Shown: positions 6,067 through 20,051 of the stretch, piece after piece
Layout of the letters: each line of letters starts with the position of its first letter
Position numbering within the stretch: position 1 is the first letter of the stretch
Assembly (NCBI GenBank): GCA_903885595.1
Contig: CAISJJ010000311.1
Coordinates: forward strand, 1-64,000
DNA length: 64,000 bases
DNA from: an uncultured Bacteroidales bacterium
GTDB taxonomy: Bacteria > Bacteroidota > Bacteroidia > Bacteroidales > FEN-979
Reading direction: 5' to 3'
The notes under the pieces: model-generated
The model's input: the letters and a program-made list of their open reading frames with translations, nothing else
What the model was told of the DNA's origin: nothing
The model's database searches: none
Made by a program: the position numbers and the translations under genes

Positions 6067-7257
6067 ATGCAAACAATTGATAATTATAATTTTAAGGATA
6101 AAAAAGCACTGATCCGCGTTGATTTCAATGTGCCGCTGGACAGTCAGTATCACATAACCGATACCAACCGCATTGATGCAACTATTACAACCATTACAAA
6201 AATTCTGAATGGCGGTGGGTCTGTGATCCTGATGTCACACCTGGGTCGTCCGAAGGGAGGTCCTGAAGAAAAGTTTTCTCTGAAGCACCTTGTCCCCTAT
6301 CTTTCACAAAAGCTGAAGGTGCCTGTAAAGTTTGCCGACGATTGCATCGGTCAATCAGCCATTGATCTTGCCGGCTCCCTGAAGCCAGGGGAGGTCTTGC
6401 TTCTTGAAAATCTCCGTTTCTACAAGGAAGAGGAAAAGGGTGATAAAGAATTTGCCCGGAAGTTATCGGTGCTGGGCGATATGTATGTGAATGATGCATT
6501 CGGTACCGCGCACCGCGCCCATGCATCAACCGCCATCATTGCTGAATTTTTCCCTGAAACCAAAATGTTCGGGTATGTCATGGCCAATGAGATCAGTGCC
6601 ATCGACAAATGCCTCAAGGACGGCAAACGACCGTTAACGGCCATCCTGGGTGGTGCAAAGGTTTCGACAAAAATCGAGATTATCACCCACCTTATGGATA
6701 AAGTCGACAACCTGATCATCGGTGGTGGCATGATGTTTACTTTTATCAAGGCACTGGGTGGCGAAATAGGCGCTTCAATGGTTGAGGAAGAATATGTCGA
6801 ACTGGCTAAAAACATCGTGGAAGGCGCCAAAACATTGGGCGTGAATCTTTATATTCCCGCGGATGCCGTTCTTGCCGATGCATTTTCAAATGATGCCAAT
6901 AAAAAAACAAGCAGCGCCTATGATATCCAGGTTCCCTGGATGGGTCTCGACATTGGTCCATCGGCTTGTGCGAAATTCAACCACGTCATCGAGCAATCGG
7001 GAACGATCCTGTGGAATGGTCCCATGGGCGTTTTTGAAATGAACAATTATGAAGCTGGAACGAAGTTTATCGCACTTGCACTGGTAAAGGCTACGGAAAA
7101 TGGCGCGTTTACCCTCGTGGGGGGCGGCGATTCGGTTGCAGCCATCAACAAATACAACCTGGCCGACAAAGTAAGCTATGTTTCTACCGGCGGCGGTGCC
7201 ATGCTCGAATACATTGAAGGCAAACAACTCCCGGGCATCAAAGCCATCATGGAGTAA
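6067..7257 (+). CDS. pgk: Phosphoglycerate kinase
   Basis: [60 protein letters not shown]. The ATG at 6067 is preferred over 6019. Confidence 0.97.
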
Positions 7258-8327
7258 TGCGCGTCATTCTCAGCCGGACCGACAGCATCGGGGATGTCGT
7301 ACTGACCCTCCCGATGGCCGGTGTGCTGAAACGATTCTTTCCCGGATGCACCATAATTTTCCTGGGTCGTAATTATACGCGTCCTGTTATTGAGGCCTGC
7401 AAACACATTGATCAGTTCTGCAGCTGGGATGAAGTTTCCGGGTTACCAGATCCCGGATCCCGGATTCGTGTCATAGCTAACCTGAACGCTGACACTATCA
7501 TTCATGTTTTCCCTGTCAGCGCAATCTGCAAACTGGCAAAGCAGGCAGGGATCCAAACCCGGATTGCCACCTCCCGGCGCTTTTTTACCTGGTTAACCTG
7601 CAACCGGCTCCTGCACATTCCCAGGAAAAATTCCGACCTTCATGAGGCACAACTAAACCTGAAGATGCTCAAGCCGCTAGGGATCGGAAAGGAGTTTACT
7701 TTAGAGGAGATTATTGAGGCGTATGGTCTTAAAAGCGGACAAGCGGACAAGCGGACAGGTCAACAAGCGGACAATGGAGCTGTACAATTAAAAATTAAAA
7801 ATTACGAATTACAGCAAATAACCCCTGTCACGCGTCACGTGTCACGCGTCACTGATAAAATGACCATTCTCCTGCACCCAAAATCCAAAGGCAGCGCCCG
7901 GGAATGGGGTCTTGAAAATTTTTCAAAATTAATAGCCCTTCTTCCGGAGGAGAAGTTCAACATCATCGTTACCGGAACCAAAGATGAAGGAGCGCTTATG
8001 CGTGATTTCCTCACTGCCCATCGCGGTCGGATAGTGGACATGACAGGTAAGCTAACCCTTACTGAATTCATGGAGCTGATCCGCTCATCTGATGCAATTG
8101 TGGCCGCCAGCACCGGCCCCCTGCATATCGCTGCAGCATTTGGTATCAGGGCGATAGGCCTTTATGCCCCCATGCGCCCTATTTTTCCGCAACGCTGGGC
8201 GCCCCTCGGAAAAAACGCCTCCTACCTGGTCCTGGATAAAAACTGCCACGATTGCCGGAAAACAATGGTTTGTGCCTGTATCAGAAGTATTAAACCAGAA
8301 GCAGTTGTCGAAAAACTCCTGGGTTAA
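7257..8327 (+). CDS. Glycosyltransferase family 9 (heptosyltransferase-like) with an internal repeat-encoded insert
   Basis: ILSRTDSIGDVVLTLPM N-terminus; ILLHPKSKGSAREWG; ASTGPLHIAAAFGIRAIGLYAPM. Confidence 0.9.
   Translation: MRVILSRTDSIGDVVLTLPMAGVLKRFFPGCTIIFLGRNYTRPVIEACKHIDQFCSWDEVSGLPDPGSRIRVIANLNADTIIHVFPVSAICKLAKQAGIQTRIATSRRFFTWLTCNRLLHIPRKNSDLHEAQLNLKMLKPLGIGKEFTLEEIIEAYGLKSGQADKRTGQQADNGAVQLKIKNYELQQITPVTRHVSRVTDKMTILLHPKSKGSAREWGLENFSKLIALLPEEKFNIIVTGTKDEGALMRDFLTAHRGRIVDMTGKLTLTEFMELIRSSDAIVAASTGPLHIAAAFGIRAIGLYAPMRPIFPQRWAPLGKNASYLVLDKNCHDCRKTMVCACIRSIKPEAVVEKLLG
7731..7852. repeat. Composite repeat inside the GT9 CDS: AAGCGGAC array, TAAAAATTACGAATTAC, GTCACNN array
   Basis: Direct reading of agcggacaagcggacaagcggacaggtcaacaagcggac, taaaaattacgaattac and gtcacgcgtcacgtgtcacgcgtcac. 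Confidence 0.95.
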
Positions 8328-17707: not shown

Positions 17708-18895
17708 TTGACCGGAATCTACATCCATATCCCTTTTTGCAGGCGTAAATGCCATTACTGTAATTTTTTTTCACTGGCTTCCCGGAAACTGAAAGATCCG
17801 TTCCTAAAGGCGTTGAAAACAGAGATTGCCTTCACACGTGATTACCTGGCCGGCCAACCGGTTAACACGATCTATTTCGGAGGGGGAACCCCTTCGCTTT
17901 ACGATCCGCTGGTGTTGCAGGAGATTATTGATATTGTGACCCAACCTCGTAACATTTTTCCTGCGGAAATTACCTCACCCCCTGACCCCTCTCCCAAGAG
18001 AGAGGGGAGAAACTTTTCGGGAGTTATTAAGGAGATTACCCTGGAGCTCAATCCCGATGATATTACACCAACCTATGTTGGCCGGCTTAAACAAACCTCC
18101 TTCAATCGTTTCAGCATCGGTATTCAGTCGTTTTCGGAAGAGGACCTGGTATACCTGAACCGTTCCCATTCTGCAGCACAGGCGATTAATGGAATCAGAC
18201 TGTTGCAGGAAGCAGGCTACAACAACCTCAGCATCGATCTGATCTATGGCATTCCAACTTCCACAACCAACCGGTGGCAAAAAAATCTTGAACTGGCGTT
18301 TTCACTGAATGTCCCACACATCTCAGCTTATGCATTGACCGTAGAACCACGGACACCGCTCGCCTGGATGATTGACAGACAAAAATCGGCGCCGGTCAGC
18401 GATGAAACGCAGGTGGAACAGTTTAAAATACTGATGGAACAAACGAAAATAAACGGATACCAGCAATACGAAATCTCGAACTTCTGCAAACCTGACCGGC
18501 ATGCCATTCACAACACCAGCTACTGGAAAGGTGTTCCGTACCTGGGACTCGGTCCCTCGGCACACAGCTACAATGGAACATCCAGACGGTGGAACATTGC
18601 CAACCTGACCAAATATATTGACGGCACTGAAAAAGGGGAATGCATTTATGAAGAAGAAACCCTGACCACCGCCCAGAAATACAACGAGTATGTGATGACC
18701 TCGCTGCGTACGATGTGGGGATGCGACGAAAAAATGATTTACGATTTCGGAAATACGATTTACGATTTTTTCATAGAAAATACACTTCCATTGATCGGGA
18801 AGGGTTTGGTCACAGAGGATTCAGGTGTTTATTTCCTCACGGATCATGGAAAGTTGTTTGCCGACCGGATAGCCAGTGAGTTGTTCCTAACCTGA
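17708..18895 (+). CDS. hemW: Radical SAM family heme chaperone HemW (TTG start) with a short internal insert
   Basis: GIYIHIPFCRRKCHYCNFFS; YFGGGTPSLY; ELNPDD; SIGIQSF; GLGPSAHSY. Confidence 0.93.
   Translation: MTGIYIHIPFCRRKCHYCNFFSLASRKLKDPFLKALKTEIAFTRDYLAGQPVNTIYFGGGTPSLYDPLVLQEIIDIVTQPRNIFPAEITSPPDPSPKREGRNFSGVIKEITLELNPDDITPTYVGRLKQTSFNRFSIGIQSFSEEDLVYLNRSHSAAQAINGIRLLQEAGYNNLSIDLIYGIPTSTTNRWQKNLELAFSLNVPHISAYALTVEPRTPLAWMIDRQKSAPVSDETQVEQFKILMEQTKINGYQQYEISNFCKPDRHAIHNTSYWKGVPYLGLGPSAHSYNGTSRRWNIANLTKYIDGTEKGECIYEEETLTTAQKYNEYVMTSLRTMWGCDEKMIYDFGNTIYDFFIENTLPLIGKGLVTEDSGVYFLTDHGKLFADRIASELFLT
17974..18008. repeat. Palindromic repeat-like element inside hemW (8 bp stem CCCCTCTC/GAGAGGGG)
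   Basis: tcaccccctgacccctctcccaagagagagggga. Confidence 0.75.
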
Positions 18896-18908: not shown

Positions 18909-18970
18909 TAGCGAGGTAGCGAGGTAGCGAGGTAGCGAGGTAGCGAGGTAGCGAGGTAGCGAGGTAGCGA
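18909..18970. repeat. Octamer tandem array TAGCGAGG, about 7.75 copies, intergenic
   Basis: Direct reading. Confidence 0.98.
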
Positions 18971-18989: not shown

Positions 18990-20051
18990 TTATTTTGCAA
19001 ACCTCAGAAAGGTACCCAGTGGTAGTTTTCGTTTCGCTTTGTCGTCGAAGTAAAATTCCCCCGACTGCATTCCGGGAATATTGCCAAAGCGGGTTTTGAC
19101 AAGGTTCTCAGGAATCAATGCTGAAAATCCCATGGAATATAAGCTCAGCACGAAAAACCCGTGATCCGGTTCAAGCAATTGTTTGCTGATGGCGATAATT
19201 TCGTCGATCGAATCTTCAAGAATCCATTTTTCTCCGTCGGGACCCCTTCCATAGGCGGGCGGATCCAGGATGATACCATCGTATTGATTTCCGCGTTTGA
19301 CTTCACGGCGAACGAAATTCATCGCATCTTCCACCACCCACCGGATATTATCGAGCCCGCTGGCGGTCATCATCTCTTTGGCCCAGGTAATGACTGGCTT
19401 TACCGAATCGACATGAACCACATCGGCGCCTGCAGCCTTTGCTGCTAGGGAAGTTCCACCGGTATAGGCGAAGAGGTTGAGAACACGGGACGCGGGACGC
19501 GGGACGCGGGACGCATCATCAGGTGACGCGGGACGCGGGACGCGGGACGAATCCGCTGATTCAATTCCGGTTTTGATTTTTGCGTTTTGCGTTTTGCGTT
19601 TTGCGTTTTGCGTTACCAAATCGTAAACGTAGTTCCAGTTGACCGCCTGCTCCGGAAAAACCCCGATATGGCCGAAAGCGGTCAACCCCAGCCTGAAATT
19701 CAGGCTCATCTGCTTATACTTGTAACCAATCGTCCACTGATCGGGCATCTTTGGTTTCCTGATCCACGATCCACGCTCATGCTCATCGGGACTGGTTTTA
19801 TTACCTTTCATGCGCACGTATCGGGCATGTGAAATTTTTTCCCATTCGCTTTCCGGCAGTGATTTCTGCCAAACAGCCTGGGGTTCAGGGCGAATCAGGA
19901 TGTGTTTTCCGAAGCGCTCCAGCTTTTCCCGGTTGCCGGTATCAATCAGCTCATATTCGGTCCAGTCGGTTGGTGAGAGAAGTTCCATATTAACGATTAT
20001 GTTATTGGGTTGACACCCATTTTCATGATACTGAACCAGATGATTATTCAA
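18990..20051 (-). CDS. Class I SAM-dependent rRNA methyltransferase (RlmI-like) with an internal repeat-encoded insert
   Basis: RVLNLFAYTGGTSLAAKAAGADVVHVDSVKPVITWAKEM; GIILDPPAYGRGPDGEKW. Confidence 0.87.
   Translation of the reverse strand: MNNHLVQYHENGCQPNNIIVNMELLSPTDWTEYELIDTGNREKLERFGKHILIRPEPQAVWQKSLPESEWEKISHARYVRMKGNKTSPDEHERGSWIRKPKMPDQWTIGYKYKQMSLNFRLGLTAFGHIGVFPEQAVNWNYVYDLVTQNAKRKTQNAKIKTGIESADSSRVPRPASPDDASRVPRPASRVLNLFAYTGGTSLAAKAAGADVVHVDSVKPVITWAKEMMTASGLDNIRWVVEDAMNFVRREVKRGNQYDGIILDPPAYGRGPDGEKWILEDSIDEIIAISKQLLEPDHGFFVLSLYSMGFSALIPENLVKTRFGNIPGMQSGEFYFDDKAKRKLPLGTFLRFAK
19486..19614. repeat. Heptamer arrays CGGGACG (19486-19514, 19525-19549) and TTTGCGT (19578-19614) inside the methyltransferase CDS
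   Basis: Direct reading. Confidence 0.97.

Follow-up and report, generated by a model that had tools for sequence, protein, structure and literature searches.

How can a tandem repeat with a unit length not divisible by three persist inside the reading frame of a housekeeping enzyme? One would expect genes to be cleared of such repeats, yet in the lineage described here the housekeeping enzymes of many species carry them, time and again at the same linkers, and the repeat sequence at those linkers is replaced species by species. The case examined lies in a stretch of 64,000 nucleotides (the window) from an uncultured Bacteroidales bacterium, whose genome is referred to as G000. The features of the gene are as follows:

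18990 to 19988, minus strand: coding sequence of a 2igt-like SAM-dependent methyltransferase (an ATG start at 19988 gives 332 aa, an upstream TTG 353 aa)
19485 to 19634, minus strand: linker between ...FPEQAVNW and VLNLFAYTG (150 bp here vs 42-48 bp in most outgroups)
19578 to 19614, minus strand: exact heptamer run, sense AAAACGC (plus-strand TTTTGCG), encoding KTQNAKR, a peptide that is predicted to extend the helix before it (residues 112-140)
19525 to 19549, minus strand: exact heptamer run, sense CGTCCCG (plus-strand CGGGACG), encoding RVPRPAS
19515 to 19524, minus strand: 10-base interruption between both CGTCCCG runs, part of the SPDDA codons
19486 to 19514, minus strand: exact heptamer run, sense CGTCCCG, encoding RVPRPAS, directly before SAM motif I

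The methyltransferase and its linker

The minus-strand frame from 18990 to 19988 is open through both array families and reads VYDLV-TQNAKRKTQNAKIKTGIESADSSRVPRPASPDDASRVPRPASR-VLNLFAYTGG. The ATG at 19988 is likely its start codon, judging from the relatives, which begin there too. A sequence-only reading of this DNA had labelled the product an RlmI-like rRNA methyltransferase, a label that did not survive comparison: the protein scored 33.4 bits against the RlmI equivalog profile (NCBIfam NF011707), the cut-off of which is 712, and 49.8 bits against a second RlmI-type profile with a cut-off of 575 (NF053718). The best sequence match was 2igt, a SAM-dependent methyltransferase of Agrobacterium (phmmer 1.7e-48, in two stretches covering both domains), which was also the best fold match of the predicted structure (Foldseek 4.7e-29, TM 0.78). 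With sequence and fold matching over both domains, the enzyme is a 2igt-like SAM-dependent methyltransferase. The m5C methyltransferases such as RlmI need a catalytic cysteine; the 332-aa protein, counted from M1, contains no cysteine at all, and thus cannot use the cysteine mechanism of these enzymes. Identity with RlmI (23S rRNA m5C1962 methyltransferase) was therefore rejected on the very low scores and the absence of cysteine, and because the best match is 2igt as well, rRNA as the substrate is unproven.

Mapping of the exact runs bore out the claim that two heptamer families build an insert that keeps the frame and falls precisely between the N-terminal domain and SAM motif I. The perfect runs measure 25-37 bp each, within a tract of about 130 bp in all; the linker peptide is TQNAKRKTQNAKIK...SRVPRPASPDDASRVPRPASR, and it has the 7-residue period that had been described, with RVPRPAS encoded by each CGTCCCG run. 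The insert had been put at ∼43 aa. It is real, and its size has to be corrected: about 41 aa derive from the repeats, and the net gain over the outgroup enzymes, as follows from the two linker lengths above, is 34-36 residues. The AlphaFold model has a mean confidence of 88, with the core above 90 and the insert at about 50-61 (block means of 61 and 52, i.e., low confidence, over residues 141-160 of the linker). The peptide encoded by AAAACGC is drawn in the model as an extension of the preceding helix.

The same linkers in related genomes

Orthologues of the methyltransferase were found in 98 relatives and named Bacteroidales MAGs, several of them bearing lake names. In an alignment of 40 proteins the linker was the only site of large length change. 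We compared the linker in 20 genomes (G000 and 19 relatives) and found at least 10 different 7- or 8-base units, with species differing in the units they carry. The heptamers at this site in G000 and relatives are GTCACGC, GTCCCGC, AAAACGC/AAAATGC, GTTCAAA, AAAGCGA, CAAAAAT, and CAAAGAT, and the octamers are CTCACCCG, CTTACCAG, CAGTTCAC, and TCATCCAG. Linker units in individual relatives are:

G001, G003, G013, and G016: GTCACGC
G008: GTCACGC and GTCCCGC
G015: GTTCAAA and CTTACCAG
G004: AAAGCGA
G012: CAAAAAT
G002 and G018: CTCACCCG
G028: TCATCCAG

Pooled autocorrelation of the 20 linkers against codon shuffles peaked at lags 7, 14, and 8 (z of 16.4, 13.5, and 8.6). All 20 linkers are in frame. 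Several are built from block repeats of three units (21 or 24 bp), and the frame survives only when an array changes by three heptamers, as had been pointed out. Units with a stop codon in the antisense direction (GTCACGC, GTTCAAA, CAAAAAT, and the TCACC octamers) occur in the methyltransferase linkers in the stop-free sense only. In G028 the octamer GATCCAGT would give TGA in one phase, and CATCCAGT stands in that phase.

Inserts of this kind are not peculiar to the methyltransferase gene; many genes across the lineage show the pattern. A second example in the window is a gene of the GT9 (heptosyltransferase) family:

7257 to 8327, plus strand: GT9 gene with arrays in an internal linker, which varies in relatives
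7733 to 7852, plus strand: arrays of the GT9 linker, made of AAGCGGAC octamers and of AATTAAA and GTCACGC heptamers

The GT9 linker is in frame in 14 of 15 cases; the exception, in G020, is 163 bp long and contains stops. At that locus (L172, G020:C24:241133-242162) GT9 lies in two open frames, and the array-rich linker appears to have broken the gene. The loop of MeaB measures 72 bp in the outgroups read (L246-L251) vs 87-192 bp in 21 family members, where it is in frame in all 21 and built of units such as CAAAATG, CCAATTT, CGAAATC, and GAGACGA. For the methyltransferase, MeaB, and GT9 together, 55 of 56 linkers are in frame. Loop length also varies in the MurD-like protein and in MutS, with less clear repeats (14 of the 30 MurD-like loci were obtained by regular expression). 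By an ORF heuristic for the assignment of arrays to genes, 22 of the 58 array clusters in 339 kb of G000 lie inside ORFs, and the array-bearing genes include MeaB, MurD-like, GT9, Lnt-like, Mfd-like, UvrA-like, and saccharopine dehydrogenase. Among single loci, a UvrA-like ORF of 1824 aa (L113:9530-15004) is about twice the usual length and has several internal heptamer arrays. A GYGYGYG-type low-complexity coding stretch (L258, G000:C141:1200-2000) is flanked by two CGGGACG arrays. In a HemW-like gene of the window (17708 to 18895, plus strand) an odd stretch, TSPPDPSPKREGRNFSG, splits the HemW profile match and may be an in-frame repeat insert.

Do the arrays serve as switches? Slippage by one heptamer would shift the frame and turn the methyltransferase off or on within a population. 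The perfect runs of 25-37 bp suit such phase variation, two-thirds of single-unit changes would disrupt the frame, and the GT9 gene of G020 is broken by its linker. However, none of the 20 methyltransferase linkers was out of frame, as judged from the assembled sequences; if the species are treated as independent, the 20 in-frame methyltransferase linkers put the off share at < about 14% (95%). In several relatives the arrays are degenerate and presumably stable, and the enzyme is cytoplasmic, neither a surface nor a restriction protein, with like arrays in MurD-like, MeaB, and Lnt-like genes. We consider phase variation improbable. The insert could instead be a selected functional module of the enzyme, for example a basic RNA-binding tail, a reading favoured by the basic character of many inserts (KTQNAKR, SRVTRHASR) and by the likeness of the protein to RNA methyltransferases. 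Neither the length nor the peptide is conserved, however: SPVHPLTRSP, EAIPSPVTRHPS, and DPVIQSSS occupy the same place, and similar peptides are found in unrelated proteins of the family. A dedicated function of this kind is unlikely, and the insert is most plausibly a repeat array that is translated and tolerated, with its frame held by selection.

Abundance, period, and spread of the arrays

Period-7 runs of at least 17 bp numbered 11 in the window, where 40 second-order Markov simulations gave 0.075 on average, and there were 7 runs of at least 25 bp vs none simulated. The arrays are heptamer long simple sequence repeats, i.e., tandem repeats with a unit of 5-11 bases that are longer than expected by chance. 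Two intergenic or terminal examples are:

18909 to 18970: perfect TAGCGAGG octamer array, intergenic, between the convergent hemW-like and methyltransferase genes
4 to 106: at the contig start, ACGGGAC arrays and then a TGTCCCG array in inverted orientation, of the unit family shared with the methyltransferase insert

Inverted pairs of CGGGACG/CGTCCCG arrays close together were also seen elsewhere (L252, L253), some of them, like that at 4 to 106, at contig ends. Other loci of G000 carry higher-order repeats of 26-36 bp. In sampled stretches totalling 339 kb of G000 we counted 50 period-7 and 18 period-8 arrays vs 0-3 for each other period in the range of 4-15; the arrays are thus confined almost wholly to these two periods, with 32 distinct heptamer and 10 distinct octamer units. 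Coding DNA is depleted in them: array clusters are ∼12 times denser in non-coding DNA (88 vs 7.4 per 100 kb coding).

The unit families expand in species-specific bursts. Three copies of CGGGACG in tandem occur at 134 sites in G000 vs 0-4 in each of 59 relatives, and three copies of GTCACGC occur 0 to 160 times per genome. Among members of the genus, GTCACGC tends to be present in the linker of those genomes that are rich in it (Fisher p 0.013, G000 excluded, 18 related genomes, kinship uncorrected), and the linker of G000 carries CGTCCCG, of the unit family private to that genome. Some period-7/8 arrays were detected in G017, G020, and G025, and none in short samples of G018, G010, and G032 or in G050 and G066, which belong to the order but are more distant. 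Loss of mismatch repair was rejected as a cause, MutS being present in G000 and in all 23 relatives searched (the MutS2 gene of G000 runs into a contig end in the assembly). Loops of 7-8 bases exceed the size that MutS-dependent repair handles well, and the presence of MutS is therefore no objection to array growth.

Could the arrays be the cargo of a mobile element, or DNA sites such as terminators or protein-binding sites, that fall within genes by accident? The species-specific bursts and the inverted intergenic array pairs do look like spread with a role. The flanks of the 58 array clusters, however, share nothing beyond the arrays and overlapping neighbours, for which reason a carrier element was rejected, and the period is all that the many unit sequences have in common; this explanation is quite unlikely. 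That the arrays are errors of assembly or consensus in a metagenome-assembled genome is very improbable: some arrays do lie at contig ends, so that repeats break the assembly, but the three runs measure 25-37 bp, the tract as a whole (about 130 bp) is near short-read length, the frame is kept, and independent assemblies of many related species agree at the methyltransferase site.

We put at about 70% the probability that 7-bp arrays of the genome-wide kind fill a tolerant surface linker, being made by a process with a 7-8-base unit and filtered by selection. The arrays would be born and would change length through a process that sets the unit at 7 bases (8 less often) and leaves its sequence free. 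A fixed period combined with free sequence suggests that the cause lies in DNA synthesis or repair and not in a sequence-specific element, and slipped-strand synthesis is the likeliest local step. Local slippage by itself does not explain one unit at over 100 places. The uneven distribution of unit families over species and the match between linker and genome suggest copying or homogenisation between loci, so that a second step, besides slippage, may carry unit families to many loci of one species. Selection on the protein would then keep arrays that are in frame, in a stop-free orientation, and encode a hydrophilic peptide, in loops only, and most other genic copies would be removed. The product would be an extended helix and, after it, a disordered spacer that, judging from the divergence among relatives, probably has no catalytic role. 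We hold it possible, though doubtful, that an active process common to the lineage founds 7-8-base arrays at hundreds of sites and keeps them alike without a mobile element, with species-specific families continually overwriting the linkers of housekeeping proteins. Such overwriting, if true, would resemble the turnover of satellite families in eukaryotes.

These observations suggest that repeat DNA keeps rewriting tolerant protein parts in this Bacteroidales lineage. The species form a natural series in which to measure the birth and spread of repeats, the reason for a period of 7-8, and the tolerance of a linker for length and sequence. Some caution is called for in annotation and length comparisons in this group, both of which are affected by repeat-derived peptide.

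Comparison with known repeat systems

A description of such a pattern in Bacteroidales was not found in the literature searched, and none of the known parallels combines all the features seen here. Heptamers are the commonest simple-repeat unit in many prokaryotic genomes, mostly intergenic (Mrazek et al., 2007, as cited in PMC4679880), and passages of the heptamer repeat literature propose 7 bases as the contact length of the polymerase (PMC4679880; PMC4692102). Known examples include the G-rich heptamers of Xanthomonas and Nostoc (PMC4692102) and TAACTGA repeats (PMC4679880). Reports on prokaryotic heptamer repeats stress units of 3n bases in coding DNA or the avoidance of coding DNA, whereas here 7- and 8-base units are in frame, occupy one linker across species, and coexist in many kinds.

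The tandem repeats of Borg elements (aaTRs; PMC9879509) are likewise fast-evolving, both genic and intergenic, and encode disordered regions in ORFs. Their units in ORFs are all divisible by three and almost all unique, whereas the units described here have 7 or 8 bases and are common to many loci (as with the 134 sites of CGGGACG); the setting here is also a bacterial chromosome assembly and cytoplasmic housekeeping enzymes. The palindromic elements of Rickettsia (reviewed in PMC10969869) resemble the present arrays as in-frame, translated inserts in unrelated housekeeping genes. They are, however, conserved palindromes of about 150 bp, in contrast to tandem 7-8-base arrays with no fixed sequence and unrelated flanks. 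In the P6b stem-loop of the Nostoc tRNA-Leu intron (PMC4476775), as in the methyltransferase linker, 7-base repeat classes have been swapped repeatedly between lineages at one tolerant site; there the site is a structured RNA with two repeat classes, whereas here it is a protein linker with many.
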